Below are positions 13,578 through 64,000 of a DNA stretch of 64,000 bases, piece by piece. Under the pieces are notes generated by a model. The model was not told where the DNA came from. It ran no database searches and worked only from the letters and a program-made list of their open reading frames with translations. This DNA comes from Amphiura filiformis (Eukaryota; Echinodermata; Ophiuroidea; Amphilepidida; Amphiuridae): NCBI RefSeq assembly GCF_039555335.1, contig NC_092636.1, forward strand, positions 55,855,706 through 55,919,705. The letters are read 5' to 3'. Position 1 is the stretch's first letter. The number at the start of each line of letters is the position of its first letter. The translations under genes were made by a program, and so were the position numbers.

Positions 13578-15300
13578 AGAAGGCTATATATTTGTACACA
13601 AATACGGCTATACCCGCATGTTATCGGTGTACCCAAACTTACAGTCCTTATTTGCTGAGGACTTAAAATAAAGAAATTGTAAAAAGTCGCCCAATTGGGC
13701 AGAAAATGTGTAAAAAGTGAAAGTCCAAGTCACAAGCTTTAATTGAAAGTAGGTTGCACTGTCGTAGCACTTAAAATAAAGAAATTGCAAAAGTCCCCTC
13801 TCAGAGTCGTCTCTCTTACTCTCCATAGGTTGCTGTTGTCAGTATCTCTTACTCACAGTGAGGCTATGCAATATGATTAGGGGAAACTATTCCAGAGGGA
13901 GTATGTAAATTAAATGGAACAACCATTTCAGAGGGAGTATGTAAATTAAATGGAACAGCCTATTTTGTGGCCATTTCAGAGGGAGTATGTAAATTAAATG
14001 GAACAGCCAATGGGTATGTAATTTAACTGGAACAGCCTTAACGTTGATGTCATCTATATTATAATTACACTATTCTCTGTGGATCTGTTTATAGTCCTAC
14101 GTGTATGGGGTGGGTGGTAACAATATAATTCTCAGGTGCAATCTGTCTACAAACTCTGAGCCCTGCTTTATTTGATGAGAAACAACCGGCCCTTTGTTTT
14201 AACATTTGGGGCCCTGGTGGGGCCCATAATATTTGATTTATGAGGCTCATGAACATATATTGAAGTATAATTCTCAGGTGCTCTCAGTAGACTCAAGCTG
14301 GGCACTGTAGCTGGTTTATTTACTGAGTAATGGCCGGCCCTATATTTTAGCGTTTGGGGCCCTGGGGCCCATATTATGTGACACATGGGGCTCATATGTA
14401 CATATAACAATATAATTCTCAGGTGCAATCTGTGTACAAACTCTGAGCCCTGAAGCTGCTTTATTTGATGAGAAACGGCCGGCCCTTTGTTTTAACATTT
14501 GGGGCCCTGAGGCCCATAATATTTGACTTATGGGGCTCATGTACATATGTTGAAGTATAATTTTCAAGTGCTATCAGTAAACTCAAGCTGGGCATCGTAG
14601 CTGCTTTATTCACTGAGTAACGGCCGGCCCTATGTTTTAGCGTTTGGGGCCCTGGGGCCCATATTATGTGACATATGGAGGTTATATATACATATGACAA
14701 TATAATAATTAAGACCTATCTGTGTACCAAATCTGAACCCTGTAGCTACTATATTTGCTGAGAAACGGCCGGCCCTTTGTTTTAACATTTGGGCCCCTGT
14801 GGCCCCTAGCCTTGTAAATCTGGGGCCAAAATGAGCAAAAGGCACATCTACAACTTAGGGCCCATACATATGCCATATATGAGCCCCAGTGATCTTGAAC
14901 TTGTAGAGCTAGGCTTGTCAATCTGTTGCACCATATTTTCACATTTGGGCCCCTGGGGCCCATAATATATAACATATGGGGCTCTTGGATATTTATAAAT
15001 ATAGAGTACCCCTAGGGCTATCACTGGACCAACTCAGGGCCCTGAGGCTGCTTCATTTGATGAGAAACGGCGCGCTTTGTATTTTCACATTTGGGCCCCT
15101 GGGGCCCGTGACCTTTGACCTCTGGGGCCAAGATGGGCAAAAGGTACTTCCACAGGGTAGGGTCCATAAGTGTACCACATATGGGCCCTGAGGCCCTTGT
15201 AGTTTTAGCGCTAGCCTTGACAGAATGATGTGTTTGATAGGAGAAGGAGGAGGAGGAGGAGGAGGAGGAGGAGGAGGAGATGAAACCACAGAATGGCACT
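13578..15300. repeat. Higher-order satellite unit 1 (7 monomers)
   Basis: The unit has four parts. A head of about 300 bp carries AGAAGGCTATATAT and a CCCGCATGTTATCGG motif. Next, 3-4 short repeats contain CAGAGGGAGTATGTAAATTA (13888-14035). Then seven monomers of about 146 bp follow, recognisable by GGCCGGCCCT near 14190, 14333, 14480, 14623 and 14767 and by GGGGCCCTGGGGCCC. A GGA-triplet tail ends the unit at 15242-15280. Alternate monomers differ (GCTGCTTTATTTGATGAG versus TTTACTGAGTAA), so the basic period is a dimer of about 290 bp. Open frames on the minus strand here are by-products of the repeat. Confidence 0.9.
15242..15280. repeat. (GGA)n microsatellite
   Basis: About twelve GGA triplets close the first satellite unit. 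The second unit ends at 17430-17462 with a degenerate version. The triplets create proline/serine-rich frames on the minus strand that are not genes. Confidence 0.95.
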
Positions 15301-17478
15301 AGAAGGCTATATATCTGTACACAAATACGGCTATACCCGCATGTTATCGGTGTACCCAAACTTACAGTCCTTATTTGCTGAGGACTTAAAATAAAGAAAT
15401 TGTAAAAAAGTCGCCCAATTGGGTAGAAAATGTGTAAACAGTGAAAGTCCAAGTCACAAGCTTTAATTGAATGTAGTTTGCACTGTCGTAGCACTTAAAA
15501 TAAAGAAATTGTAAAAAGTCCCCTCCCAGGGGAGGCGTCTCTCTTACTCTCCATATGTTGCTGTTGTCAGTCTCTCTTATTCACAGTGAGGCTATGCAAT
15601 ATGATTAGGGAAAACTATTCCAGAGGGAGTATGTAAATTAAATGGAACAGCCATTCCAGAGGGAGTATGTAAATTAAACGGAACAGCCTATTTTGGGGCC
15701 ATTTCAGAGGGAGTATGTAAATTGAATGGAACAGCCAATGGATATGTAATGTAACTGGAACAGCCTTAACGCTTCACGCTGGTATTTCCAATTATTATAT
15801 TATAATACGGATATGTCTGTTTAGTCCTATGTGTGTGGGGTGGGGTGTGGGTGTTAGTAACAATATATATAATTCTCAGGTGCTATCTGTGTACAAATTC
15901 TGAGCCCGGAAGCTGCTTTATATGATGAGAAACGGCTGGCCCTTTGTTTTAACATTTGAGGCCCTAGGGCTCATTATATTTGAGTTATGAGGTCCATGTA
16001 CATATGTTGAAGTATAATTCTCTAGTGCTATCAAGCGACTCAAGCTGGGCACTGTAGCTGCTTTATTTACCGAGTAATGGCCGGCCCTGTGTTTTAGCGC
16101 TTGGGGCCTTGGGGCCCATATTATGTGATATATGGGGCTCAGATGTACATATATCAATGTAATTTTCAGGTGGAATCTGTGTACAAACTCTGAGCCCTAA
16201 AGCTGCTTTATATGATGAGAAACGGCTGGCCCTTTGTTTTAACATTTGGGGCCCTGGGGCCCATTCCCATTGTATTTGACTTATGAGGCTCATGTACATA
16301 TGTGGAAGTATAATTCTATAGTTCTATCAGTAGGCTAAAGCTGGGCATTGTAGCTTCTTTATTTACTGAGTAACGGCCGGCCCTATGTTTTAGGGTTTGG
16401 GGCCCTGAGGCCCATATTGTGTTACACATGGGGCTCATATACACATATAACAACAATATAATGCTGAAGACCGTTTAGTGTATCAAATATGAACCCTGTA
16501 GCTGCTTTATTTACTGAGTAACGGCCGGCCCTATGATTTAGCGTTTGGGGCCCTGGGGCCCATATAATGTGATATATGGGGCTCACATGTACATATAACA
16601 ATATAATTTTCAGGTGCAATCTGTGTACAAACACTGAGCCCTAAAGCTGCTATATTTGATGAGAAACGGTCGGCCCTTTGTTTTAACATTTGGGGCCCTG
16701 GGGCCCATAATATTTGACTTATGAAACTCATGTACATATGTTGAAGTATGATTCTCTAGTTCTATCAGTAGACTCAAGCTGGGTATTGTAGCTGCTTTAT
16801 TTACAGAGTAACGGCCGGCCCTATGTTTTAGCGTTTGGGGCCCTGAGGCCCATATTATGTGACACATGGGGCTCATATATACATATAGTAGTATAATGCT
16901 TAAGACCTATTAGTGTACCAAATCTGAACCCTGTAACTATTTTATTTGCTGAGAAATGGCCGGCCCTTTGTTTTAACATTTGGGCCTCTGGGGCCCCTAA
17001 CCTTTAACATCTGGGCCCAAAATGGGCAAAAGGCACATTGAAAACTTAGGGCTCATACATGTACCACATATGAGCCCTAGTGCCCTTATAGTTTTAGAGC
17101 TAGCCTTGTCAATCTGTTGCCCTTATTTTAACATTTGGGGCCCTGGGGCCCATAATATATGACATATGCGGTTCATGTAAACTTGTATATATAGAGTACC
17201 CTGGGGCTATCAGTGTACCAACTCAGGGCCCTGAGGCTGCTTCATCTGATGAGAAACGGCATGGTTTGTGTTTTTACATTTGGGCCCCTGGGGCCCGTGA
17301 CCTTTGACCTCTGGGGCCGAGATGGGCAAAAGGCACATCTGCGGGGTAGGGCCCATAAGTGTACTACATATGTGCCCTGGGGCCCTTGTAGTTTTGGCGC
17401 TAGCCTTGACAGAATGATGTGTTTGATAGAAGAAGGAGAAGGAGGAGAAGGAGATGGAGATGAAACCCAAGGATGGCA
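15301..17478. repeat. Higher-order satellite unit 2 (10 monomers)
   Basis: Direct repeat of the unit at 13578-15300, starting with the same AGAAGGCTAT head and ending with the same GATGTGTTTGATAG plus GGA-like tail. It has ten monomers of about 146 bp instead of seven (landmarks near 15938, 16080, 16228, 16374, 16523, 16670, 16815, 16955, 17120 and 17262), which accounts for its extra 450 bp. The array ends about 0.64 kb before the GPCR exon at 18121, so it probably sits in that gene's intron. Confidence 0.9.
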
Positions 17479-17550: not shown

Positions 17551-18120
17551 GCAACATAAAATCAAGTGGTGCTGGTGCAGTCAGTGTTTGCACGTTGGAA
17601 GTTACTTGCAAGGAAGTAGATATGTAAACCGTTGATGGCGGAATAACAAACAAATCACCGATGACGTTTCCAAGCTAGGCTTTCTTCTCACGGTTGTTTG
17701 ATGCATGTATAACTATAGTTATTAGTAACTTAATGTGAACACTGGTGGCGCTATTTATCTTAAATCTTATTTGTATACTTACAAGGGATAGAAACCTAAC
17801 TACACTTGGCTATTGGCATTAAAACTTCAGGAAAATGAATAGCAAATATCATGGAAGTTTTCAAGCAACTTTTTTTGTCATGAAATGAAAGGAATAACTC
17901 ATATTGTTTATCTAAATATATACAAATGACTCCTTCAATTTGCAAACAAATTTACAGAATAAAAATGATCACAAAAGAAAGATTTTAATTCAGTGTGCAA
18001 CCTGCTCGTAATGTGCAGGTATAGTATTGAAAATGATATGTATTGTTATAAAAAATAATAAAATGATCACGAGAACTTTCACCAATATATTTTTTCTTCT
18101 TTTTTTCTCCTTTTCTACAG
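17551..18120 (+). other. Intron 3' end upstream of GPCR exon
   Basis: Non-coding and AT-rich. It ends in a strong acceptor: a pyrimidine run (TTTTTTCTTC...TTTTCTACAG) with AG at 18119-18120. No preceding exon was found within reach. Confidence 0.75.
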
Positions 18121-18877
18121 ATTTGTCGGTATATTCGATCCATTACGACCACGAATGCGGAAAGGCACCCTATGCCTCATCGTGTCCACGATATGGGTTG
18201 TGTCCATTCTTGTAGCCTTACCGACACCACTATTTACCAGAGCAACTGCCGCTCTTGAATGCGTGGGCAATTCTAGATATCGTTTAGTCATAATGTGCTA
18301 TGAACACTGGCACAATCTCACCGCAAGTAAGGCATACATCTCGTTTATAACCATTTTTGAGTTTCTTCTGCCTTCCATTGTGATGGCGTTTATTTACGTG
18401 AGAATTGCACAGCAGCTTTGGTTTCACCGTCGACCGCCAGGAAATGAAACAGCCCGACACCGTGAAATAACTCTGGTCCGAAAGCAAAAGATCATTCCTA
18501 TGTTAGTTGTTTTAGTAATATCCTTCGTTGTATGCTGGTCACCATATTATGGCTACTATCTAGCTATGCATCTGATACCAGAGGAATGGGAATGGGAAAT
18601 GAACCAGCTTCAATTATATTACATTGTAGAAAGTATTGCAATGCTGAATTCTGTAATTAGCACAGTTATCTACTTCTTCATGAGTCCAGTATTTAGAGAA
18701 GAACTTACGAGTTTGTACCATAAATTATTACTTCCATGTCAAACACAAAGGTCAGGGTTCAAGAAAGGTCGGAGTCAGACAACTCGTACCGGAAGTAATA
18801 TGTCCCATACGCATACGAGAAATGGCGCTATGCACGTGATGCCAAAAAGTAACGTGACCGCGGAGGCAAGACTTTGA
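18121..18877 (+). CDS. Last coding exon of a prokineticin-receptor-like GPCR
   Basis: Encodes the C-terminal 251 residues of a class A G-protein-coupled receptor, from just after the DR of the DRY motif to the stop at 18875-18877. It begins directly after a TTTTCTACAG acceptor; the first base completes the preceding codon (phase 2). Visible parts: intracellular loop 2 with PLRPRMRKG (residues 7-15), TM4 (about 16-37), the extracellular-loop-2 Cys (59, MCYEHW), TM5 (about 72-96), TM6 with CWSP (138-141), and TM7 with NSVISTVIY (176-184) in the NPxxY position. A basic, Ser/Thr-rich tail follows. The SPYYGY and YIVESIAMLNS stretches resemble prokineticin receptors; that subfamily call is by eye. 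TM1-TM3 must lie on upstream exons that I cannot find here. A paralogue lies at 58502-59237 on the other strand. Confidence 0.88.
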
Positions 18878-31949: not shown

Positions 31950-32346
31950 TCCTCTAGCTCAAGAACTAAAGTAGCCTCGGGGTTCATACTTGGTATAATG
32001 ATGGCCCATGACCCCTAAAAGTTTCTTAGGGTACCCACGACCCCAGCGGTCAAAGGTCATAGGCTACAGGGAGCAATATGTGTAAACTTTTAAAACAGCT
32101 TTAGCTTAAGAACTATAGCGCCCTCAGGGTTCATACTTGGTACAACGATGGCCCATGACCCTTAGATATTTTCTGCAGTAACATCGACCCCAGAGGTCAA
32201 AGGTCAATTGCTACAGGGGGCAATATGTGTAAAATTTCAAACAGCTCTAGCTCAGGAACTACAGCGACCTCAGGGTTCATACTTGGTACAATGATGACCC
32301 ATGACCCTAGATGTATTCTATGTTAGCCGCATCCCCAGAGGTCAAA
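31950..32346. repeat. 147-bp tandem repeat, ~2.7 copies
   Basis: The word GGTTCATACTTGGTA occurs at about 31981, 32128 and 32274, a period of 146-147 bp. Other shared words are TAGCTCA(A/G)GAACTA, GGCCCATGACCC and GAGGTCAAAGGTCA. Copies are about 80-85% alike by eye. Confidence 0.9.
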
Positions 32347-32559
32347 GTCTAAAGGCTTTAAAAAGCAAACTAGGTACGACATATTAACACAGTGTAGCGC
32401 AATAGGTAGTATTTTGTTAGATACCTGTGTTTGCAATGATAAAGGTCTGAATCGTACGTCAAGGAAACTCATCACTTGACAAATACTCCCAGAAAAGGGA
32501 ATGTGTAGGCATTTTGATTTTGATTCCTTGGACCACCTCAAAAGGTTGTCATGAGGGTT

Positions 32560-32690
32560 CACGTTTATGCTTGTGACTTCTAACCCCTGCAGGGCGTTTA
32601 GTTTCACCGATGTGAGTGGCGTTGCACGACTGACAGGCGATGTTATACACAGTGTGGCACAGTTCTTCGAAAAAATGTAAATTTTAGACT
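32560..32690 (-). pseudogene. PLE GIY-YIG endonuclease N-terminal fragment
   Basis: Minus-strand codons give CHTVYNIACQSCNATHIGET followed by KRPAG and then a stop after KREPS. This lines up with the GIY-YIG start of PLE endonucleases (compare CVYEIPCKSCKKSYIGETGR at about 35.6 kb), including the paired cysteines. The usual YIG reads HIG here. An identical fragment lies at 36573-36703 in the second duplication copy. Confidence 0.75.
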
Positions 32691-34209
32691 ATTTTAGCCC
32701 GAATTGAAGCGAAGCAGTTTTTGTATGCTATTTTGGCCCAAAACAAGGTGTTTTTCGGCTAAAATGGAAGATGCACACTGCTCATGGCAATTTTTGGGGC
32801 CCCAAACTTTGGTTATTGGTTATTGCTCTGGCCCTATGGTAAATCCGGCCCTGATTTTTGTAGAATGTTTAACACTGGCCTTATTACTACTCGTTACTAG
32901 TTAGTTGCTCGGATTTATTTTACTCGGGGTCACTTGACCTTCTATGGTATAGCGAGGGCTTTGATCAAGAGCTAACATCGAAACTGACAATCCAAGTTCA
33001 GTCAAATAAAGCTGTTCATTATTTGTAGGAATATTTGGAATCTTGGGATTTCTACGCAGGATGGACAACGCCAACAGGTTGTGGGCAAGAAGCTTTGAAA
33101 GTCCATCTGGTAACTCTCTAGTGGTTCAATGAAGGTCAGCTTGCGGAGCCAGCTTATATTTGCCCTAATATTTTAGATTGTTTGTGGAGTATACGCACAG
33201 GTGTCTCATCTAATGAAAGAATAGTGCACCACTGAACCGTAATACAATTATTGCTTGAATTTGACGGTATTGCATCATAAACGCTGAAGGCAGTGGAAAT
33301 GTTGGAAAAAAGCCCTTATCTTCGACGGAAAGTTTTGAATTGGCTCTTAAAGGTCATAGGTTTCTCTGAACTCTGTGTCTATGACGAAGATTATACAGGG
33401 TGAGTCAAAAAAGTGCAATAGAGCAAAGAATCGGTATTTATGTAAGAACCAAGTTGAACTTTCCCATTATTGAAACTTTCTATCAATAGTCACCTTCTGT
33501 GAAAAAATGAAGTGACTCGCTTCTACCGTTTAATTTTATGAGTCCTTTTGCTGCGATACCCAATTTCATTATTTGTCCACGAAGTACCATGTATTTTGAA
33601 TAGGAGGACACAATGCACGATAAATGCAACAGCTCTGAAAATGACTTTAACTTAAGTTTTTATTTCTTTTGTTCTGTTCAAACAAACTTTCTTACAAAGT
33701 TTTTGTAATCCCAATATGTCCAATTTACTGGATATTTTGAAATTCACTCCACTTCAATTTGCGCGCATTTCATTTCGACATTTGAAAAACCCGCCTACAA
33801 ATTTATATGGTTTTAATGGAAAATGAACATCTTTAAAATAAAGGGGAAATGAAAATAACAACAAATAATCCCTTTAATAAGTTCATCAGGATTGTAGATA
33901 TCAATTATTGGTAGATTATGCTTTACAAATCCACTTGATTACTCACGTTTTTAGACGTTTCATCTTCCTACGGAAGACTTCATCAGTAATGTGATGAACC
34001 AGCAACACTCCTACTCTCATCTCCAGAGGGTGTAGTTCTTTGCAATAGCTGGTCATATACATGATTGAGTGAGTATGTCCCTTCATCGCGGTTGATAACG
34101 TTGGCCCCCCGTTTCCTGATCCACATTGCTTCTCTAATCCATCTGGTTTGCTTACATGAGTCTTTGTCGATTACTTTGGCTCCGTCCCAATCAATAACAT
34201 GGTTTTGTT

Positions 34210-36038
34210 AGCAAAGAGGAAAGAGTAGCACTCAAACAGTTGAAAAAGGACAAGTCAATCATAATAATGGGTGCAGACAAGGGTAGAAGCACGGTTGTTA
34301 CATCTACCGACGGCTATGAAGAAAAGGTAAACAACTTGCTTAGTGATGAAAAAACTTACGAGAAACTTAAAGGAGACCCCACTTCAAAGTACAAGCGGAA
34401 GTTGTTGGGTACCTTACAGAGACTTAAGAAAGAAAACAAGATTGATAATAGCCAATATAAGTTGCTCTACCCCACTGCTGAAAATACACCACGCATATAC
34501 TGCACCACAAAGATTCACAAAGAGGGATACCCGGTCAGACCAATTGTGGATTACACTGGATCCATCGCGTATCAGACATCTAAAGCGTTAGCGGAGATTC
34601 TGTCCCCCATGGTAGGAAAGACAGCCCATCATGTCACCAACTCGCGGGAATTAGCGGAAAAACTAGCTACGGTCAGAATTGACGACGAGGACATTTTTAA
34701 TTCACATGATGTCGTGTCACTGTTCACGAATACCCCTATCAATAAAACGCTGGAGTTAGTGAGAGATTATCTGGACAAGGACACCACGCTGAAACAAAGA
34801 ACATTACTCAACACCGATGACATTATTGAATTACTTGAATTTGTCTTGACGACGACATATTTTTCCTTCAGGGGAGATATTTACATGCAGAAATTTGGAG
34901 CGGCCATGGGAAGCCCAGTGAGCGCGATTATCGCGAACATTTTTATGGAATGGCTGGAACAAAAAGCCATAGCCAATGCACCCATCGCGTGTCGTCCAAA
35001 ATTATGGAAAAGATATGTCGACGATATCCTCGAGATTATACCAAAGGGCACTACGCAAGAACTGACAGATCACCTCAACAAAGCGGATCCAACCAACAAC
35101 ATTAAGTTCACGCACTAGGAAGAAGCAGAAGGAAAAATACCTTTCCTCGATACGCTGATCAATCGGAAAGAAGACGGTTCGGTAAAGACAACAGTGTACA
35201 GAAAGAAAACGCACACCGACCAGTATTTAAACTTTGCTTCGCAACATCCCTTACACCAAAAATTGGGTGTAGTCAGAACATTGCTTGATCGGAAAGACGC
35301 GATTGTAACGGAAGAGGAGGATAAACAACAGGAGGAGGAACACATCAAACATGCGCTAAATCAATGTGGATATCCTAACTGGACGATTGAAAAAGTGAAA
35401 CAACAGATCAGTGATAAGACCAAAGCGAAGAAGAAAGCAAAGGACAAGAACACAGAAAGAAGTAAGGGCATGGTAGTGATACCCTATGTCCAAGGCGTGT
35501 CCGAAAGACTGCAACGTGTGTTTAAAAGCATAACATCCAGACAGCGATGAGACCACACAATACGCTGAAACAAAACCTTGTACACCCCAAAGACAAAATA
35601 GAAGCCACCACAACTTGCGATTGTGTTTATGAAATACCATGCAAAAGTTGCAAGAAGTCGTACATTGGGGAAACCGGCAGACCTTTCGGGGTAAGACTGA
35701 AAGAACATTTAAAAGAATCTGAAAAGTTAACAGAGAGGAAATTCACACGCGCTGTTCGAAAGGAGTCGGTCGATGAAATTAACAAGTCCGCCATCACAGA
35801 CCATGTTTCGCAACAAAACCATGTTATTGATTGGGACGGAGCCAAAGTAATCGACAAAGACTCATGTAAGCAAACCAGATGGATTAGAGAAGCAATGTGG
35901 ATCAGGAAACGGGGGGCCAACGTTATCAACCGCGATGAAGGGACATACTCACTCAATCATGTATATGACCAGCTATTGCAAAGAACTACACCCTCTGGAG
36001 ATGAGAGTAGGAGTGTTGCTGGTTCATCACATTACTGA
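34210..36038 (+). pseudogene. PLE reverse transcriptase + GIY-YIG endonuclease (broken)
   Basis: The RT frame enters straight from the inverted arm at 34210 with no own start. It contains ADKGRSTVV, the catalytic Asp in HDVVSLFTN (34708-34710), GAAMGSPVSAIIANIF and YVDD (35014-35025). An in-frame TAG at 35116-35118 (after IKFTH) interrupts it, and the same frame continues with IPFLDTLI and YRKKTHTDQY to a TGA at 35548-35550. The endonuclease is in another frame, from an ATG overlapping that stop as ATGA. It shows CVYEIPCKSCKKSYIGETGR, FTRAVRK and EAMWIRKRG, ending at 36036-36038. Catalytic residues look intact, but truncation, stop and frame change make it inactive as it stands. The N-terminal RT region is missing. 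Confidence 0.92.
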
Positions 36039-36084
36039 TGAAGTCTTCCGTAGGAAGATGAAACGTCTAAAAACGTGAGTAATC
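36021..36084 (+). ncRNA. Hammerhead-ribozyme-like motif in PLE 3' end
   Basis: CTGATGA (36035-36041) is followed by a stem (GTCTTCC, loop GTA, GGAAGAT), then GAAA (36060-36063), a short ACGT...ACGT stem, and TAAT complementary to the ATTA before the core. This is the order of a type I hammerhead. PLE pseudo-LTRs are known to carry hammerheads. It departs from consensus: there is an extra A after CTGATGA, the nucleotide at the cleavage position would be G, and stem I is offset by two bases. It may be degenerate or a look-alike. The same motif is in the inverted arm at about 33940-33995. Confidence 0.5.
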
Positions 36085-36572
36085 AAGTGGATTTGTAAAG
36101 CATAATCTACCAATAATAAACAACAAATAATGTTTCTTCTCCTTAAACAAGACCAAGGGCAATAACAGTTTGGGTGCTCCATTTTATTCCAATGCCAATG
36201 AGGTTAAGAAAAATGTCAGTGGCACCAAATCTACTTTACACAGAGTGGGCTGACATTCAAATTTTAGATGTCTCTTGGACAAACATTCAAATTGGGTATC
36301 TCTATAAAATCTGTCATAAAAACAAAACGGAAAATGCTAATTCCTTGATATTTTCACACAAGAACACTAATGTTATCACTATGTTAATTATAAAATATGT
36401 TTTAAAACCTGAAAGGTTCAACTCGGTTCTTAGATACCTGTGTTTGCAATGATAAAGGTCTGAATCGTACGTCAAGGAAACTCATCACTTGACAAATACT
36501 CCCAGAAAAGGGAATGTGTAGGCATTTTGATTTTGATTCCTTGGACCACCTCAAAAGGTTGTCATGAGGGTT

Positions 36573-36703
36573 CACGTTTATGCTTGTGACTTCTAACCCC
36601 TGCAGGGCGTTTAGTTTCACCGATGTGAGTGGCGTTGCACGACTGACAGGCGATGTTATACACAGTGTGGCACAGTTCTTCGAAAAAATGTAAATTTTAG
36701 ACT
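36573..36703 (-). pseudogene. PLE endonuclease fragment, second copy
   Basis: Duplicate of the 32560-32690 fragment, with the same VYNIACQSC and THIGETKRPAG words and the same stop. It was carried along by the tandem duplication, not by a separate insertion. Confidence 0.75.
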
Positions 36704-36796
36704 ATTTTAGCCCGAATTGAAGCGAAGCAGTTTTTGTATGCTATTTTGGCCCAAAACAAGGTGTTTTTCGGCTAAAATGGAAGATGCACACTGCTC

Positions 36797-37167
36797 AGAG
36801 GAGGCTTAAAGGCATTCCTACAATGCACTATGATTGGGAAATTTGATCAATATAACCTAATTTTAAAGGCAAAGTCCCCATTGCCACACACACAAAATGG
36901 TCATTTTAAAACTGCAGCCAACGAGCTAATAGTTGAGACTTAGGACTGATATTTGATTTTCTTACAGGAAACATTCATATTGTCCCACTGCATTAATTTT
37001 ATTCCTAAGTCTCGATGTTATGAATGTTAAATAATAGGATGAAAACACCAGATATTTGCACACAATTCCAATGAGAGGCATGGTCAACTGTACCATATGT
37101 GTACAAAAGCCAGACATACAAGGTCAGAAACCCCATTGGGTTGTGGGAATGTCTTTAAACATCCTCT
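36797..37167. mobile_element. 371-bp MITE with 11-bp target duplication
   Basis: Flanked by GCACACTGCTC at 36786-36796 and 37168-37178, which occurs once at the empty site in copy 1 (32774-32784). Ends are imperfect inverted repeats of about 27 bp (AGAGGAGGCTTAAAGGCATT against AGAGGATGTTTAAAGACATT on the complement). An inner GACTTAGGA/TCCTAAGTC pair is visible. Target duplications of 9-11 bp are typical of Mutator-like elements, so a non-autonomous MULE is the best guess. Confidence 0.85.
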
Positions 37168-38799
37168 GCACACTGCTCATGGCAATTTTTGGGGCCCCAA
37201 ACTTTGGTTATTGGTTATTGCTCTGGCCCTATGGTAAATCCGGCCCTGATTTTTGTAGAATGTTTAACACTGGCCTTATTACTACTCGTTACTAGTTAGT
37301 TGCTCGGATTTATTTTACTCGGGGTCACTTGACCTTCTATGGTATAGCGAGGGCTTTGATCAAGAGCTAACATCGAAACTGACAATCCAAGTTCAGTCAA
37401 ATAAAGCTGTTCATTATTGTAGGAATATTTGGAATCTTGGGATTTCTACGCAGGATGGACAACGCCAACAGGTTGTGGGCAAGAAGCTTTGAAAGTCCAT
37501 CTGGTAACTCTCTAGTGGTTCAATGAAGGTCAGCTTGCGGAGCCAGCTTATATTTGCCCTAATATTTTAGATTGTTTGTGGAGTATACGCACAGGTGTCT
37601 CATCTAATGAAAGAATAGTGCACCACTGAACCGTAATACAATTATTGCTTGAATTTGACGGTATTGCATCATAAACGCTGAAGGTAGTGGAAATGTTGGA
37701 AAAAAGCCCTTATCTTCGACGGAAAGTTTTGAATTGGCTCTTAAAGGTCATAGGTTTCTCTGAACTCTGTGTCTATGACGAAGATTATACAGGGTGAGTC
37801 AAAAAGTGCAATAGAGCAAAGAATCGGTATTTATGTAAGAACCAAGTTGAACTTTCCCATTATTGAAACTTTCTATCAATAGTCACCTTCTGTGAAAAAA
37901 TGAAGTGACTCGCTTCTACCGTTTAATTTTTATGAGTCCTTTTGCTGCGATACCCAATTTCATTATTTGTCCACGAAGTACCATGTATTTTGAATAGGAG
38001 GACACAATGCACGATAAATGCAACAGCTCTGAAAATGACTTTAACTTAAGTTTTTATTTCTTTTGTTCTGTTCAAACAAACTTTCTTACAAAGTTTTTGT
38101 AATCCCAATATGTCCAATTTACTGGATATTTTGAAATTCACTCCACTTCAATTTGCGCGCATTTCATTTCGACATTTGAAAAACCCGCCTACAAATTTAT
38201 ATGGTTTTGATGGAAAATGAACATCTTTAAAATAAAGGGGAAATGAAAATAACAACAAATAATGTTTCTTCTCCTTAAACAAGACCAAGGGCAATAACAG
38301 TTTGGGTGCTCCATTTTATTCCAATGCCAATGAGGTTAAGAAAAATGTCAGTGGCACCAAATCTACTTTACACAGAGTGGGCTGACATTCAAATTTTAGA
38401 TGTCTCTTGGACAAACATTAAAATTGGGTATCTCTATAAAATCTGTCATAAAAACAAAACGGAAAATGCTAATTCCTTGATATTTTCACACAAGAACACT
38501 AATGTTATCACTATGTTAATTATAAAATATGTTTTAAAACCTGAAAGGTTCAACTCGGTTCTTAAATTAAAATTGATTATTTTCTCTATTGCACTGGTCA
38601 GGGCTGTCAACTCTCACGCATTGGGCGTGAGCTTCACGCATTCGGTCACTTTCTCACGGTCTCACCCACTTACTGCGTGACTCCTGTTTCATGGTAGTGC
38701 TTGTATATAAGATGAACGTATTTGCCTATTCAAGATCTACAAATCTGTGCACTTGTAATAGCAACCAAATAAGAAAGACATCCGAATATAACAATCTGT

Positions 38800-42362: not shown

Positions 42363-44600
42363 TTATTCTCTACAGAGTGAATTGAAAATACCCCATCTTT
42401 TATAAAATATACCAATATTATTATTACATATGTAAATATATTTTTCTAATTTATAATGATTTTGCAGTTCTTTCTTGAAAATGTGGATCGAAGGGTTATT
42501 TTCTTTCATTTTCATTTTATATGTATGGAATCTGCATAAAACAATATAGCTAGGACCAACGCCAAAAAGAAGATTTTCTTTTTTTTTCCAAGAGAGGTTT
42601 ATATTAACTTTGTTTTCGATCCACCTTTTCACATCATCCCAAAATTTCTTAACCACATGACAATCGCAAAACATATGAATCATAGTTTCATTCTCCTCCA
42701 GACAGAAGGTACACAGACTGGAATCTTTTATCCCTATTTTAAATAAAAATGCGTTTGTACCAAGGATTCTGTGAATTATTCTGAATTGAAACCACCTGAG
42801 TTTAGTACTTATTGTACATTTGAAGGGTGTATTAAAATAACATTCCATCTTGAAGGATCAAATGTAGCTTCAAGCTTTTCTTCCCATTTTGTACATATTT
42901 ACGAACAATTGGTTTTCTCGAAACCAGAATATTATATATTCTTCTGGAACCCTTAAAGAGGACATCAAAGTGAAATGGAATAGTAGGGTAAACAAGAGTA
43001 TCACCAGGTTTGTCAAAGAATTTTGGAAATGACTTTTTGATCGCCAATATTACACCACCGTACTCAACAAAATTTGTGCGAACATGAAAAATACTCATAA
43101 AATCCTCCAGCGAGAGGAATTCCCCTCTCTCATTTAAAAGATCATTTACAAGATCAACACCATTACGAATCCAATGTGGTAATACAAACTTTGTTTACCC
43201 ACTTTAATGTTTTCATTGTACCAAAGTGAACTCTTCAGTATCTCCTGTCTGGTAGTTGGTTGATGACAGTTAGAAAAACTAAACCATGCCAAAAAAACAT
43301 CTTTCCAAAATTGATTCGGTTTATCATTGTTGTTATTCATGAAATTCATAATATTAATAGATCCACCCTCAATGTCCTGGATACGATTTATACCTGTTGT
43401 CTTAAGAAAGAGTTTTGCCCACTCTGTCTCCGTATTTTTAATGATTCTAGGGATCCAGGTTATTTTTAGCGCATATATATATGACTGGACATCTTGTATC
43501 ATTTGATTTCTTGTAACCTTATCAATACCTTTCCATATAAATTTATATATTATTTAATTTAAATCTTTTATTAACTCGTATTGTGGATTAGGCAAAGTTA
43601 AAATCAAAAAGGTAAGCTTTGATAAAATAAGTGATTTAACTATTGTTACACGGCCCAGAACTGTAAGGTTACGTCTTGAACATTGGTGAATTAATTCATG
43701 AATTGACTCCATTGTTTTTGCATAATTAATCTGCACAATTCTTTCAAGTGACACAGTGAAGTCAATACCATGTGCTCTAAAACAGTTATTATTATGAATC
43801 CATTTAACGTTCAAATGATCACAAATCGTTTCATTGCTACCACTTTTTGACCCAATCCACACAACATTAGTTTTGTCTATATTTACCCGTAAACCACAGT
43901 GAAGTCAATACCATGTGCTCTAAAACAGTTATTATTATGAATCCATTTAACGTTCAAATGATCACAAATCGTTTCATTGCTACCACTTTTTGACCCAATC
44001 CACACAACATTAGTTTTGTCTATATTTACCCGTAAACCACACATGTTTTCAAACGAATCGAGGATTTTAAAAGCTTCATTCATTGACTTCTCTGTGCCAT
44101 CAAGAAAAAGAACAGTATCATCAGCATATTGAGATATGCGATATTCTGCATCCCCTATTCTAATACCTTTAATATTCTGATTTTTTCGAACCATCATACC
44201 TAGAACTTCCGCACAAAGGATAAATAAATAAGGACTTAGTCCGTCGCCTTGTCTGCATCCTCTACCCACTTTAAAAGATTCCGAAAGAAATCCATTTAGG
44301 CCTACTAGGACTGATGATGAAGCTTGGTTATAAAAAACACGAATCCATTTTTTAATAGAATTGCCAAAATTGAATTTATCGAATATTTTCATTATAAATG
44401 TATGTGACACCGAATCGAAAGCCTTTTCGAAATCAATCATGAGAAAAGGCCAGGAATATTTTTATTCTCTGCCAAAATTATCAGGTCGTACATTAAACGT
44501 ATATATTCTCCAATATATCGAGCCGTGACAAAACCTTTTTGGCGTTCGTGTATAATATCGGACAAGCAGGATTTTAATCTGGTTGCGATGCACGACGAGG
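42363..44600 (-). pseudogene. LINE reverse transcriptase ORF2 (broken)
   Basis: In order on the minus strand: HERQKGFVTARYIGEYIRL (RT block 1, 44560-44500); a 1-base frame change near 44445; MIDFEKAFDSVSH; GRGCRQGDGLSPYLFILCAE; then YADDT (YADD at 44117-44128) and VNIDKTNVVWIGS. A 143-bp tandem duplication at 43753-44038 then breaks the frame. The thumb region follows at 43550-43860 (RRNLTVLGRVTIVKSLILSK) and 43146-43502. At 42363-42848 a C-terminal part has a zinc-knuckle pattern CTFC...H...C (CTFCLEENETMIHMFCDC). The catalytic YADD is intact, but the truncation, duplication and several frame changes make it inactive. Confidence 0.9.
43753..44038. repeat. 143-bp tandem duplication inside LINE
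   Basis: 43753-43895 and 43896-44038 appear identical by eye over the 143-bp period (ACAGTGAAGTCAATACCATG to ATTTACCCGTAAACC). 143 is not a multiple of three, so it shifts the RT frame. Short ACAC/CACAG microhomology is at the junction. Confidence 0.95.
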
Positions 44601-44849: not shown

Positions 44850-47320
44850 CCGAATTATTTTCGTCAATGGATATATCAATCACTTTGATATGACTTGTAT
44901 CATTATTATCAAATTAATGTTTGATTTATTTGTTGCGTTTGAAAATGATCATACATGGTTTAAAAATGATATAAATTGTTGACACATTTCCGGCTAGTAA
45001 TTCTTTTTTCAAAGGCTATAGTAGACGAAGTAAAATAAACAAGTTTGTAAGCTGTCACGACGACTTATATATATATATCACATCAATGTCAGTCGTGCCC
45101 GAAGCATTTTATTGAAGGAGTAAAAAAAGCAACAAGTGCAATGTCAATATTTCACACAAGAATGACAATTATATTTCCCCATAGCTATAATTTATTTAAT
45201 ACAATTCTTAAACAAACAACACACTTCATTTTTACAATTGATCAAATTTGTTGTTAGTAAGTTAAGTATGCCCGCAACTATCAAAAACATTCATACGTTA
45301 TAACCACTTGTGCGCGAAACAGATGACTTTCTGGATGACATAGCGGGTCGAGTAGTATGCTGCTTTCAATCTTGTTTCTCTGCTACTTAATGCAAAGATG
45401 ATGTCTGGCGAAAGTACTTTTATCCATAGTATTTTTTACTTCCTAGAAACTCATTAAAGCCCACATTATAATCTAGTAAACATGAACAGCCGGGTAGTAA
45501 TGACGACAGCATATCAATTCAACAGTCCACATGCCCACCTAAATCCCAACCTACCCCACATCCCAGGGTCCACACTCACCCTACACCACCAACAACAACG
45601 GCACACAGCACTAGTCGTGCTACTGACCGACCAGGGGCTATTTTAGATGAAAAAAGTCACTGCACGTTGGCGATGTAAAGCAGGGGCTATTTTAACGTGC
45701 CTCCTGGCACGTTTGTGCAGTGAGATTAAAATTCCGTGCAGTGAGAATTAAAAATCCGTGCTTAAAATATTTCGATGCAATTCGACAAACTCAATAGGGA
45801 TGCTTTAAATATAGCACCTACTGTATGGTCACTTTAAAAATTTTCGCGCTGCGCGCACTTAACACTTCATCACCCATTTCCTTGTGTTTCTTGAAAACTC
45901 CAATTTTCAAAGGGCCTTATGCATATTATACGCATAGCTGGCGTACCGCTACTTAGTATCATCAACTCCCCCACGCTTTGCTCACAATCTAAACAAGGTC
46001 TTTCCATTTTTCCAGCTTTCCATTTGCTAACTTGCGTGCTATATGGGGTGGGGTGCGGCAACGCTTGGAAATCGCAACAAAAAGACACAGGCCTAGATAC
46101 CGGGGGGTGATCCACCAATTTTTTTTATATGTGGGATGGTCCATGCAATCATCCTCCCCCATGATGACGCCCGTATGTGAGTTTCTGACAAAATTAACCT
46201 CATATTTGGCCATTTTATCCTACCTGAAATCTACGCCCATGCAAAAAAAGGAGAGTGAGATTAACCCAATTTTTAGCTCATTTTAGCATTAAAATGCTAA
46301 TTTTTTTTCGCGATTCGCGCAGGCCAGCGGACCGGCTTCGTCATTTTTATACCTTTGAAAATATATTTTTTCATCTCGAACTTCTTCAAAAATCAGAGAT
46401 TATAGTTCCATCCTTTCTAAATTATATAAATCATCAATATGAGTGCTGGGAAGCTCTACAGTCCGATGCCTTGAAAAGGCCTAAATGTAAAAACTAGTGA
46501 GCTTGGGGCTCTACACCCTGGGCCTCCGCCAGGGGCTGTGATACACGACTCCACCAGGGGATCCACCCCAACCCGTTTGAGCTCGCAACATTGATAACCT
46601 GCCAATAAAAATAGTCCCTAAAAGTGTCAAGTGAGCAAAGTGTTGGACTGCAGAAATGTCCCCCCTAAAATCATTTTGTTGGGCCTTCGGCCAAGTTGCT
46701 TTTTAAAAATTCAATGTTGGGTGAATTTTTGTGAAAGTGGAAGAGTATTTTGTACTCATTTCGTGGGTGTTCTTTCTGTTTTCAAAAAGTAACAAAATAA
46801 GAGCAAACAAGAGTATTTTGCAGGTTTGTTTGTTTGTAGATAAGACTTAACGTTGCTTGTTTGACAAGTGTTAAGTGCGAAAATTTTGAAAGTGACCATA
46901 CGGTAGGTGCTATATTTAAAGCATCCCTATTGAGTTTGTCGAATTGCATCGAAATATTTTAAGCACGGATTTTTAATTCTTACTGCACGGAATTTTAATC
47001 TCACTGCACAAACGTGCCAGAAGGCACGTTAAAATAGCCCCTGTGACCGACCGGGGAGGCATTGAGCATTAGAATTTCGCCGCCTCCCCGGGGCCGCCTG
47101 ACCGCCTCTTGAGCTTGTCGAACGCGTCACGCTTATTTCTCACGGTAAATTATTGCGGGGAGTAGGAACGTGGAAAATGCTCAATTATATCAATTGACGA
47201 CGACCGGTCGTTCAAATGCTAAATTTGAGGCTCGATGTACGGCATATCACGCGTCCTCGGAAAGGTAGACCTGCAGTTCGATTACATTTTGGAAACAATG
47301 ATAGAGATCTCGTTAGCAAA
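44850..47320 (+). repeat. Diverged dispersed block D, copy 2 (interrupted)
   Basis: Second copy of 28850-29880, split by the hAT-like element at 45632-47043. The left part ends near 45620, and the right part resumes with TCACGGTAAATTATTG and ACGGCATATCACGCGTCCT. Confidence 0.7.
45632..47043. mobile_element. hAT-like non-autonomous element, 1,412 bp
   Basis: Bounded by the 8-bp direct repeat TGACCGAC (45624-45631 and 47044-47051). Ends are CAGGGGCTATTTTA and its complement. An 8-bp duplication with CAGGG-type ends is the hAT signature. Inverted arms are about 170-185 bp (45681-45865 and 46876-47043). At the left, a second CAGGGGCTATTTTA begins at 45681, so the first 49 bp is an extra partial terminal copy. 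Frames inside (for example 45870-46118 minus) show no transposase motif. Confidence 0.85.
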
Positions 47321-48749: not shown

Positions 48750-49118
48750 TCGGTGACAACTCTCTAGTCGGAAGGTTCGCTAGTTCGAACACATAATCTA
48801 CCATTCGCTAGTACGAATTCTGAAAAAGGTTCGCTAGTCCGAATATCGGGTTCTCTAGTCCGAAGGTTCGCTAGTCCAAATGATAAATAAGGTTCTCTAG
48901 TCCAAATATTGAATAAGGCTCGCTAACCCTAACCCTAACATCAACCCTAACTCTAACCTTAACCCTAACACTAACCCTAACCCTAACCCTTATTCTATAT
49001 TCGGACTAGAGAACCTTCGGATTAGCGAACTTAATTTGGTTTTCGGACTAGCGACCCTTCGGACTAGAAAACCTTCGGACTAGCGACCCTTCGGACTAGA
49101 GGGAAGTCACGGAAATTT
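48750..49118. mobile_element. Palindromic minisatellite with telomere-like core
   Basis: The left arm repeats GGTTCGCTAGTCCGAA-type words, the right arm repeats the complement (TTCGGACTAGCGACCC), and outer ends (CGGTGACAACTCTCTAGTC) are mirrored. The centre, about 48920-48992, is a degenerate CTAACC tract (several perfect CTAACCCTAACCC runs). The symmetric flanks suggest a fold-back element rather than a chromosome end. Confidence 0.8.
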
Positions 49119-53190: not shown

Positions 53191-54397
53191 ACGAAAGATC
53201 CTGTTTATGAACCCGTAGATATGATGTGTAAAAATGTGGATCTTACATTCTCTGCAGGTATATTAAAGTTCCAACCAGAATTCACAGATCATTGAGCAAG
53301 GTGATTACTTGATATCTTGGTGCTAATCCCTAACCATTATCTCAATAATTGTTAATGACAATGTTAGCCTAGAATTATATGCTTTATGACAAACAAAAAA
53401 TGATTAACAAAAAAGACTGAAATTATGAAACAACAACGTCAGGTCGTCCCGTCTAATGATGAAATTATGAAATTATTAATAGCCGACGTTTCTTCTATTT
53501 CGGTATAAATAAAATATATATATGTACAATATATAACATTAATTAAATATATTTGCTGAACATACACTTTTTGAGACATAACATTTGAAACCATGGGATA
53601 GAAAATGTTAAAAACTATATACAATAGCAAGTTTTCAGAGTTATGTTTTACATTGTCGATGATAAATCAAATCCAAAATCACAAAAGATAAAAACTAAAC
53701 AGTGGAGATAACTTTAGGTCATGGAAAATCAGTCGACAGGTGCGTGTAATTCTTAAGTTTTGAATTTGCTATGATAATCAATATTACCTTTTTATGTCAT
53801 GTATTCAGTGTTCATCGGTATTTTGGTGTTCATCGTTTAAGAAGCATAGCACGTTTACGTCTAACTGCTTCGGGATGGTGCTCAAACGTGTTTCAAGAAC
53901 ACCGATAGAAAACAGTGCGTGATTAGTAGAGCCGGGTCCTAGATTACGCAATCAACCCTATTCGTAACATGCTTGCTTCATATCAAAATCAACATAATGA
54001 AATTTAACAGTATAATCAGTTTAGGTATTTTAAAAGTCGTCATACAACTGATCTAATTTATATCAGAAAAATCCTAGCAACGCCACTGTGGAGGGGAATG
54101 GGGTAGAATTTGAGAGAGAGCGCGCAAGGATATGTGGAGGGAGAGGAAGGGGAAAATAAAAAAGGGAGGAGAAACCCAATTGATATGAAGTTCATTTCGC
54201 AAAATCTCTATAATGATCAAAATACGTGAACGTCCACCTCGAAATTATCATTCAGGAATATAGGTCAATAACGCCAACAGAATTTAATATAAAAATGTGT
54301 AAATTGTGGGTGGTCACGTCCAAAAAAAGGTCCAATATCATCAAAAGTGGGTAGACTTCGACATTGAATCTTTGAGTGAGATAAAGCTTCGCATTAT
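53191..54397. other. Non-coding, nothing recognised
   Basis: AT-rich with TA-rich patches near 53510-53550, and a purine-rich GAGAG stretch near 54110-54170. No gene. Confidence 0.45.
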
Positions 54398-54790
54398 GTG
54401 TAGGAATATTTGGAATGTAATGGATTTCTACACAGGATGGACAACGTCAACAGGTTGTGGGCAAGAAGCTTTGAAGTCCATCTAATCTAGTAACTCCCTA
54501 GTTGTTCAGTGAAGGTCATCTTATTTGCCCTAGTATTTGAAATTGTTTGTGGGTAACATGGCTTAATTGACGTTCACACACAGGTGTCTCATTTAATGAA
54601 AGATTTTGGTGGTATTAGATCATAAACGCAATCCTCAGTGAAAAAAAAACCACTTAGCTTCGACAGAACGTTTTAGATTTGCTGTCATATGTCTCAAATA
54701 AGATTGACAATTTTAGAGGTCAAAAGGTCATTTGTCGTTTTTGTCTATGAAGATTTTATAATAAATGTCTATGACTTTGCAGTTCTGTAA
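54398..54790 (+). repeat. Third, diverged copy of part of the 32-38 kb unit
   Basis: Shares GAATATTTGGAAT, ACGCAGGATGGACAACG-like, CAACAGGTTGTGGGCAAGAA, CAGGTGTCTCAT and ATCATAAACGC in order with 33025-33390 and 37420-37780. By eye it is about 80% identical with indels, so the unit contains an older dispersed repeat. Confidence 0.75.
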
Positions 54791-58501: not shown

Positions 58502-59237
58502 TCAAATTTTTGTGTCTATTGTGTCTACAGTTATCTTCCTTATATGATTGTTGCTTTTCAAGGCATGTGAGGAAGAATTGCTTCCCGTGCTTTTATTCAA
58601 CACTGCCTTTGATCGACGAAGTTTTGGAGGGCACTCGTGAAAACAGCTGGCATAAACAGCAGAGAGTTCTTTGCGAAACACAGGACTCATTATAAAATAA
58701 ATCACGGTGCTTATGACTGAATTCAACATGGCGATGCCTTCAACAGCATACAACATCGAGTAGCGGTACTCAAAATTGCTTTCGAGATCTTCTTGAAAGA
58801 AAGTGAAGGCAAGATTGTATCCGTAATAAGGCGCCCATGAGAGGAAAAACGCCACTACAAGAGTAACCAACATGGGAATTGTCTTTTGTTTCCGCACAAA
58901 CGTGATCTCGCGATGTCGCTCTGTTACATTTCCAGGGGGTGTGCGATGTGACCAAAGTTTCATGGCGATACTTAGGTATATGAATGCCATTATCCACATG
59001 GGGAGTAAGAACTCTACAACTGTAATCAAGACTGTGTATGCCTTAAGAGCCATGGTATTGTACCACAATTCAAAACAAGCATGTTTAATAGCACCGTCGC
59101 ATTCCCCAGAGGTGACCCGAGTAAACAGAGGAGCTGGAAATGCTGCTAGAATAGATATCAGCCAAATGAACACGACTATGATAACCAAGGTGGATTTACG
59201 CATGCGTGGTCGAAGTGGTCTAAAGATTCCATGATAT
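58502..59237 (-). CDS. Last coding exon of a second prokineticin-receptor-like GPCR
   Basis: Encodes the C-terminal 244 residues of a class A GPCR, paralogous to the exon at 18121-18877. On the minus strand the exon starts after an acceptor TTTCTTTATACAG, and its first base completes the Arg codon before YHGIF. The split inside DRY, phase 2, is identical in the two genes. Visible parts: PLRPRMRKS, TM4, the loop-2 Cys (ACFELW), TM5, a PPGNVTERHREITFVRKQKT loop before TM6, WAPYYGY in TM6, and NSVISTVIY in TM7. The tail is Ser/Lys-rich. The AVEGIAMLNS stretch also recalls prokineticin receptors. The 5' exons must lie beyond 59240 and are not recognisable before the window ends. Its frame is intact, and the two proteins look about 55-60% identical by eye. 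Confidence 0.88.
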
Positions 59238-60079
59238 CTGTATAAAGAAACAAGAAAGATAAAGAACATCTGAATGAAAAATCTAGTAAGGCTTTACGTT
59301 ATTGCTATGTTGGTGCCAATCACCAAAAGTTATTGTTATCAGAAAATACGACAATGAACTTGTACATTTTGCTGTTTGCTCTTTTAAGTGCATTGACAAA
59401 CGAGGAACGTGACCATGCAAAGTTCAAGACTAACATTACAAAAAATCAAGTGCCATAATATTTCGGTAGGTAAGTGCATATACCACAATATTTTGTGTGC
59501 GCTTACATCACTAGGATATCATATGTTGTCAGAATTGATGTTGGATGAAGCGTTTGGTATCAAAACATTAGTATTAACTGCAAGTGTTTGCAGTATGCTC
59601 TTTTAATTCCAATAAACAGTTAGATACCAGGAAAGTGGATTATTCTAATGTTTTCATGGCAAACACTTACACTAAATCTCTGCAAGGAATTTCTTTTATA
59701 ATCTCTACAGTACCGATATATTATCATAGCATTCAATTTTTGTAATAAATGTGGTAAGCAGAAACTAGAGCTACTGTCAGGCAGTGGCAATCATACTTCT
59801 TGGAGACAAACCCAGCAAACACAAAAATGTTTTAAAAATGTTTTAAACATAATTTTGGGTTTTGGTTTAGATAAAAACATTTTAATAACATTAAATGTCG
59901 GGTTATATAAAGGCCATGGAAACGTTTTAGCGGTTCTTCTAACCAAGTTTGGTGATTATAGAATGTAATTTAAATTCTTTTGGACTTTTTGAATGGAATA
60001 TGCTATTCATACGGCAGGGCAGATCCCAAAATATTTTAGAGAAATAAATTCAATAGTACAATTATTCAGAAAAGCATGT
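59238..60079 (-). other. Intron upstream (5') of minus GPCR exon
   Basis: Non-coding. It includes a partial copy (59812-59940) of the element at 39144-39541, sharing ACATTTTAATAACATTAAAT and GTCGGGTTATATAAAGG. No upstream exon recognised. Confidence 0.55.
59812..59940 (+). repeat. Partial copy of the 39.1-kb element
   Basis: Starts with ACCCAGCAAACACAAAAATG and stops after GGAAACGTTTTAGCGG, covering about the left third of the element at 39144-39541. Confidence 0.7.
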
Positions 60080-62459: not shown

Positions 62460-62826
62460 CCTAAAACACAAAAGTACGACCCTCTCCAAACACCTAAATT
62501 AGCTAAAATTTAGGACATATTGGCCGGTTATTTTCACACAGCGACGTTAACTAGGCAATGTACTATTACCTATAGCATTAACTAAAACACCAAAGTACGA
62601 ATATTTCCAAACATCTAAATTAGCTAAAAATTTAGGACATGTTAAAAAACTATATTTTCGAGAACTTTAGAAGAGTACTTTTAATATTGGCCGGTTATTT
62701 TTCACACAGCGACGTTAACTAGTCATATCCCCATACTTTTAACGTAGGGCTATTTGTAGAGGTCACGCGTCAATGGGAAAGAGCACTGTGTATTGTGTAT
62801 AGGAAAACGGACAGTAACTGCAGTAT
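62460..62826 (-). repeat. Left inverted arm of third PLE, with internal tandem copy
   Basis: 62547-62826 is the reverse complement of 63727-64000. Landmarks are GACAGTAACTGCAG, GACGCGTGACC and its partner, GTTAACTAG, and TAACTAGGCAATGTACTATT. A motif run (AAAGTACGA, CTAAATTAGCTAAA, TTTAGGACAT, ATTGGCCGGTTATTTT, CAGCGACGTTAACTAG) occurs twice, at 62460-62554 and 62578-62720. Confidence 0.85.
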
Positions 62827-62842
62827 GGTCAAAAAACCAGGG

Positions 62843-63300
62843 GGATGGCAGTCCTTCCATATAAAGAAGGGCTCTCCCAACGCGTACGGCGGGTGTTCAA
62901 CAAACATTGCATCAGAACCGCCTTCAAACCACATCAGACCCTTTTTTGGTCCATCCAAAAGATAAACGGGAAGTTACACAAACATCAGACTGTGTGTACG
63001 AAATTCCTTGCCTCAATTGTGACAAGTTCTACATAGGCGAAATATCCAGACTTTTCGGCACCAGACTCAAAGAACACAAAACAGAAGCTGAAAAAGCTTC
63101 CAAGAAAGCCTTTACCCGTTCTCAGAGACAGGCCTCCATTACAGGGGAGGATAACAAATCAGCAATAACTGACCATGGCTCTGAGGAAAATCATGTTATT
63201 GGATGGGACAAATCAGAAATCAAAGACAGAAAACAGAACAGAAAGAAGAGATATATCAAAGAAGCCATCTGGATAAGCACAACGTCAGCTCCAGCAGGTA
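62843..63300 (+). pseudogene. PLE endonuclease fragment (broken)
   Basis: Begins right after the inverted arm. One frame has MAVLPYKEGLSQRVRRVFNK and HCIRTAFKPHQT. A frame change then gives LVHPKDK, SDCVYEIPCLNCDKFYIGE and FGTRLKEHKTEAEKASKKAF, followed by KRYIKEAIWI. This is the RT-to-endonuclease linker and most of a GIY-YIG domain (VYEIPC..C..FYIGE). The RT itself is absent. After EAIWIS the protein degenerates. Confidence 0.85.
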
Positions 63301-63726
63301 GCAGTCGTCGAGGTGCAGGGATTAGAGTTTGGTTGTGTGATTGGTTGTGTGGTTGGATGACTGTATTTGAGAAAGTGACTGTATTTGAGAAAGTGCGAAG
63401 TGTTAGCACGAAACTGTCATTGATCGAGGTATGTAACATCAAAATTGGATTTGCTCTAAGATTGTTGAACTTAATAACCATAGCATTAGATAAATAAAAA
63501 TTTTGAATATATCACATGTGTATGTCTGCAATCATAGGTTGAATACAATGCCGCTCTTTTCAATGCATAGGTACCGCGTGAACGTTGTAGTACAGGGCGA
63601 TATATTCAAAAATTGTATTAATCTGTTGCTACGGTAGTTAATCCCGTTACATCATCACTTCTACGGCGAATAAAGAGAAGACCCAACCCCAAGGCCCATA
63701 GAATAAGTAGACACATGCAATACATA
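63301..63726 (+). other. Likely PLE 3' part and block E remnant
   Basis: No intact gene. It includes duplicated CTGTATTTGAGAAAGTG at about 63361-63394 and ends with a block E word (AATAAGTAGACACATGC) just before the right inverted arm. Confidence 0.45.
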
Positions 63727-64000
63727 CTGCAGTTACTGTCCGTTTTCCTATACACAATACACAGTGCTCTTATCATTGACGCGTGACCTCTACAAATAGC
63801 CTACGTTAAAAGTATGGGGATATGCCTAGTTAACGTCGCTGTGTGAAAAATAACCGGCCAATATTAAAAGTACTCTTCTAAAGTTCTAGAAAATATAGTT
63901 TTGTAACATGTCCTAAATTTTTAGCTAATTTAGATGTTTGGAAATATGCGTACTTTGGTGTTGTAGTGTATGTTATAGGTAATAGTACATTGCCTAGTTA
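63727..64000 (+). repeat. Right inverted arm of third PLE (runs off window)
   Basis: Reverse complement of 62547-62826, with CTGCAGTTACTGTCCG at its start. The window ends inside the arm at the complement of TAACTAGGCA. Confidence 0.85.

Follow-up and report, generated by a model that had tools for sequence, protein, structure and literature searches.

Penelope elements of rotifers, as portrayed in the part of PMC3846280 that deals with them, carry an inverted pLTR, an optional tail of ~31 bp on one inverted pLTR and a short target site duplication (TSD), and they include 5'-truncated members and members with in-frame stops. The protein of Poseidon PAc, a Penelope-like element (PLE) of Anolis carolinensis, cuts and extends both strands and begins reverse transcription inside the RNA (in the excerpt of PMC11167929 considered here). 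Microhomology-mediated tandem duplications combine a tandem copy with a short stretch of sequence common to the ends at the joint; those treated in the relevant portion of PMC5730883 came from induced breaks in embryonic stem cells, whereas at the locus described here, which is like them in both features, the mechanism is deduced from one joint.

We observed this locus in a window of 64,000 bases from Amphiura filiformis (the whole stretch of DNA that was analysed; 37% GC, no N). Two copies of a 1.75-kb unit adjoin head-to-tail with a new joint at 36429/36430, as seen in the alignment and as in a tandem segmental duplication. A global alignment of 32417-36429 with 36430-38563 gave six blocks with 1,749 aligned columns (large gaps left out) and 3 substitutions (copy 1/copy 2 positions 33291/37685, 33815/38209 and 36288/38420). 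A shuffle control for the duplication was unneeded, because the identity is 99.8% over 1.75 kb. Three single-base gaps were present (at 33022, 33407 and 37927), every one inside a run of T or A. The large gaps were two only: 2,262 bp specific to copy 1, made up of the 13-bp direct repeat AACAACAAATAAT and an insert of 2,249 bp, and 382 bp specific to copy 2, made up of the 13-bp direct repeat TGCACACTGCTCA and an insert of 369 bp. Each copy holds the empty site of the other copy's insert, with the target 13-mer present once. Both copies with their joint and low divergence, and the two inserts with their empty sites, are direct observations, and the coordinates are collected in the table.

These results bear out an earlier note on this DNA, which had claimed a tandem duplication with two single gaps bounded by direct repeats, reciprocal empty sites, clean insertion boundaries (the gaps are delimited by the direct repeats) and copies differing by few bases (here 3 substitutions and 3 one-base indels). 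The insert-free lengths that it gave were 1,751 and 1,752 bp. The first stands; the second becomes 1,750 bp, as copy 2 ends at 38561 and not at 38563, the two extra bases being part of the TTA at the right boundary.

Table. Features of the duplicated locus (positions in the window).
Feature	Position	Strand	Remarks
Copy 1 of the 1.75-kb tandem duplication	32417..36429	+	1,751 bp insert-free; Penelope-like element inside
Copy 2 of the 1.75-kb tandem duplication	36430..38561	+	1,750 bp insert-free; MITE-like element inside
Microhomology TTA	32417..32419	+	left boundary; recurs at the joint (36430-36432) and at the right boundary (38562-38564)
13-bp target duplication AACAACAAATAAT	33857..33869	+	right-hand repeat at 36119-36131; occurs once in copy 2 (38251-38263)
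Penelope-like element (PLE)	33870..36118	+	2,249 bp; a stop and a frame change interrupt the coding region
34-nt extension ("tail")	33870..33903	-	on the left inverted arm; right arm without it
Left inverted pLTR arm	33904..34209	-	exact reverse complement of 35812-36117
RT piece	34198..35118	+	ends at an in-frame TAG; YVDD motif by eye
GIY-YIG endonuclease piece	35526..36038	+	3' of the RT piece, in a different frame; YIG motif by eye
Right pLTR arm	35812..36117	+	at the 3' end of the PLE; hammerhead-like pattern at 36035-36063
13-bp direct repeat TGCACACTGCTCA	36785..36797	+	right-hand repeat at 37167-37179; occurs once in copy 1 (32772-32784)
MITE-like element	36798..37166	+	369 bp, or 373 bp with a 9-bp TSD

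We examined the joint and its surroundings for shared sequence. The ends have 3 bases (TTA) in common rightward and 0 leftward. At this base composition at least 3 common bases are expected in ~6% of random joints, and the microhomology is therefore suggested, not proven. When the 2-kb flanks on both sides were compared with the window by BLAST (E up to 1e-3), no match to the copy ends was among the matches listed, and so no longer boundary homology was found. The 200-bp flanks gave local scores of 12 and 10 against the copy ends, values obtained without shuffles. Neither the PLE nor the MITE-like element is taken as the cause of the duplication, as ~300 bp separate the joint from the closest edge of an insert.

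TTA is present beside each copy and at the joint, and TTA is a Harbinger-like target; the 1.75-kb unit could on this ground be a mobile element that entered TTA sites twice, side by side. We give this reading almost no credence and rejected it, since the unit is without terminal inverted repeats: its termini are alike at 8/20 positions (score 5), and 997/1000 shuffles score as well. In addition, no further whole copy of the unit was found in the window; one inner piece has a 74% relative, at 54372-54603. Short stretches within the unit match one another in inverted orientation at 67-72%. The motif CAGGGTGAGTCAAAAA, which we take to be reminiscent of a mariner end, occurs in both unit copies, at 33396 and 37790; its partner GACTCACCC was not found in the 64-kb window. 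The unit is apparently non-coding; with the PLE set aside, it contains none of the window's nine stop-to-stop frames of at least 150 residues, and short exons could still exist.

A second tandem duplication, which is perfect, was seen at 43752-44041 (143-bp unit, joint CACA, 147 identical bases including the shared CACA), so that such events are not unique in the window. It overlaps the end of a LINE-type reverse transcriptase frame at 43883-44461 (- strand; RVT_1, E=4e-23).

The earlier note had read the large insert in copy 1 as a Penelope-like element, and the RT and GIY-YIG pieces, the inverted pLTRs and the tail agree with this. The RT piece matched RVT_1 at E=2e-4 (21.6 bits, under the curated Pfam cut-off of 29.6), and its frame continues past the stop to 35547. 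Its PDB matches up to E=1 were only two group II intron-like RT entries (E=0.2). The GIY-YIG piece matched PF01541 at E=1.6e-4 (22.4 bits, slightly under the cut-off of 22.6). As both Pfam matches are below their cut-offs, it is the RT and GIY-YIG pieces, the inverted arms and the tail in combination that carry the assignment. The arms are a perfect inverted pair of 306 bp, as for pLTRs of which one is inverted and may bear a tail, and for the 13-bp target site duplication the empty site in copy 2 served as the check.

The arrangement is already published, in the part of PMC3846280 on rotifer elements: as in Pen2a of Adineta vaga, an RT piece is followed by a GIY-YIG piece, with an inverted pLTR on the 5' side, a tail, a short TSD and an in-frame stop. 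Unlike in Pen2a as presented there, no direct 5' pLTR was seen before the RT piece here, and the PLE in copy 1 is probably 5'-truncated. The TSD is 13 bp, in comparison to 8, 9 or 10 bp or none for the rotifer PLEs covered by that source, and the arms are 306 bp as against about 180-220 bp (PMC3846280). By analogy with the two-strand activity in the excerpt on Poseidon PAc, priming from both sides of a break could yield a pair of inverted arms that begin at different points, which would fit this insert. Poseidon PAc, as described in that excerpt, has a tandem-repeat arrangement and a recognised hammerhead, whereas the insert here is a single broken copy with a hammerhead-like pattern only (PMC11167929).

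This pattern (CTGATGA...GAAA) is seen in the right arm and also in the inverted arm, and 30/100 shuffles give two such matches, so that it is no rarer in the window than chance would make it. The three folded stretches had z values of -2.3, -1.3 and -2.3, a fold that is no proof of a hammerhead. The Rfam hammerhead had no match up to E=1 in 32300-38700, and the whole window had no Rfam match at the gathering level. The Rfam hits STnc180 (E=0.042) and DLEU2_4 (E=0.91) in 32300-38700 were taken as chance, being far under their gathering scores. Relatives of the RT piece were sought by tblastn, and none was confirmed in viral contigs (7 pattern stretches) or prokaryote contigs (62), as expected for sets that are viral and prokaryotic.

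Since the coding region is broken while the arms are identical, the PLE was perhaps copied from an already defective template; the alternative is sequencing errors. A second PLE-like piece lies at 62548-64000. Its frame at 62865-63497 matches GIY-YIG weakly (E=1.7e-3, 19.1 bits against a cut-off of 22.6) and is flanked by inverted arms (62548-62827 and 63723-64000, 95.7% alike), the second of which extends to the end of the window.

The small insert in copy 2 had been called a MITE, and we found TIRs with 22/26 positions alike, for which 0/1000 shuffles of the 50-base ends were as good. The 11-bp target duplication claimed for it has to be revised: the direct repeat is 13 bp, 11 bp being its inner part, and the TSD may be 9, 11 or 13 bp, each with symmetric ends (CAGAGGA..., AGAGGA... 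and GAGGA..., respectively). With its 369-373 bp, TIRs and target duplication, it is like MITEs and non-autonomous TIR transposons. By structure it is MITE-like, and it would be too short to encode a transposase. A second copy was not found within the 64-kb window, and the DNA fold had no excess stability (z -0.87; 20/100 shuffles fold as well). The 13-bp direct repeat is longer than the target duplications usual for MITEs and TIR transposons. There is a slim chance that either two homologues differing by the PLE and the MITE were joined, leaving both alleles in cis, or the TIR group of the 369-bp element has an unusually long TSD of 11-13 bp. Elsewhere in the window, two inverted 170-bp arms (45681-45850 and 46874-47043; 97% alike, ~1 kb apart) perhaps belong to a DNA transposon.

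The divergence between the copies is 0.17% (3/1,749 substitutions; 95% CI 0.04-0.50%), and the PLE arms have 0/306 differences (upper 95% bound 0.97%). The earlier note had derived from this locus the order of events and the youth of both insertions. The empty sites would place the duplication before each insertion, but they give no order between the two insertions. Insertion after duplication is the best account of an empty site with a single target in the other copy; this order would not hold if two homologues already carrying different insertions were united by the duplication, and the empty sites would also fit two alleles placed end to end by the assembler. Such an unequal exchange between a PLE-bearing and a MITE-bearing homologue, with insertions older than the duplication, would explain the reciprocal empty sites without two later insertions. 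When coalescent variance is allowed for, at most 3 differences in 1,749 sites has P = 0.35, 0.20 and 0.11 at 0.5%, 1% and 2% heterozygosity, although the divergence is too low if heterozygosity is fixed at 1% or 0.5% (Poisson 2.7e-5 and 0.025, respectively). For the exchange, homologues would also have to be joined illegitimately around a region that by coincidence contained two insertions, both polymorphic, and we regard it as quite improbable.

As for youth, the low divergence supports it, but the argument depends on a young duplication, and gene conversion could mimic youth. Tandem copies often undergo conversion, and if it had kept an old duplication alike, the low divergence would date neither the duplication nor the insertions. 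The 6 small differences are spread 0, 5 and 1 over three segments, which is not uneven (p = 0.44) and neither supports nor excludes conversion. The 0.17% divergence is most simply explained by a recent origin, and the identical PLE arms agree with this, so that we hold conversion to be very improbable. The identical 306-bp arms also back the youth of the PLE independently, if loosely.

We also compared insertions with substitutions. For Drosophila, the part of PMC7334843 used here quotes spontaneous rates per site and generation of 2.11e-9 for insertions and 2.8e-9 for point mutations. Two insertions among 5 differences fits these rates (p = 1.0), a plausibility check made with the rates of another organism. 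If large insertions between alleles were rarer than substitutions by an assumed factor of 100 to 300, at least 2 of 5 would have a chance of 9.6e-4 to 1.1e-4. In Daphnia, the available portion of PMC8594854 reports TE rates that differ widely among genotypes and that, counted per copy, far exceed substitution rates; the Drosophila ratio is therefore no constant. Neither comparison is decisive, because such rates vary widely. Moreover, the locus was picked for being striking, which inflates insertion/substitution ratios.

The assembly is presumably correct at this locus, and the duplication would then be present in the organism. A false duplication, in which the assembly placed two alleles of one locus (a PLE allele and a MITE allele) end to end, is unlikely. 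With their 3 substitutions and two large insertions, the copies do show the sort of differences that haplotypes may have, and assemblers tend to separate haplotypes at large heterozygous insertions. Against this, the window has no N, and the joint is a sharp 3-bp sharing, whereas a join through overlapping reads would be expected to need a long overlap.

Together, these observations have led us to consider it probable that a microhomology-type tandem duplication was followed by independent insertions of the PLE and the MITE-like element, with the assembly right. A 1.75-kb stretch would first have been duplicated in tandem by break-repair or a replication error, its ends united via the three common bases TTA, possibly through an end-joining or replication mechanism. 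A defective PLE would then have entered the left copy after the duplication, its second pLTR inverted and 13 bp of target sequence duplicated. The short TIR element would likewise have entered the right copy after the duplication, with no order relative to the PLE. We favour this account because there are two large gaps only, 3 substitutions, reciprocal direct repeats, a TTA joint and no longer boundary homology; in addition, the unit is without TIRs, the PLE arms are identical, a second tandem duplication is present in the window and the Drosophila rates fit.

Several points count against it. The microhomology is short enough for chance (6%), and the share of insertions is high under the assumed ratios of 100 to 300. 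Sequencing errors are often homopolymer length changes, and all three small indels here are of that type. In wild-type cells, according to the portion of PMC5730883 drawn on here, tandem duplications arise mostly via classical end joining, which is microhomology-independent.

Other features were noted in the wider window. Two rhodopsin-type GPCR frames lie at 18062-18877 (+) and 58502-59293 (-), with 7tm_1 matches of E=9.7e-23 and 9.8e-26, and among PDB entries neuropeptide receptors (QRFP, substance P) are similar to the first. The GPCR frames and the PLE and LINE-type pieces would point to an animal-like genome, though to nothing narrower. Two arrays of a ~145-bp repeat (also read as 290-296 bp) are present at 14118-14805 and 15868-16996, with 70-87% matches, and a telomere-like interstitial CTAACC array at 48923-48990 has 11.3 units with 80% matches. 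ARAGORN found no tRNA in the window.

The locus is an ordinary event involving known element types, and it leaves the general view unchanged. As each copy is the other's empty site, it gives clean boundaries for two elements, which helps to annotate both families and to fix the lengths of their target duplications. If confirmed, the 2 insertions against 3 substitutions would be a small data point on the rate of transposition.
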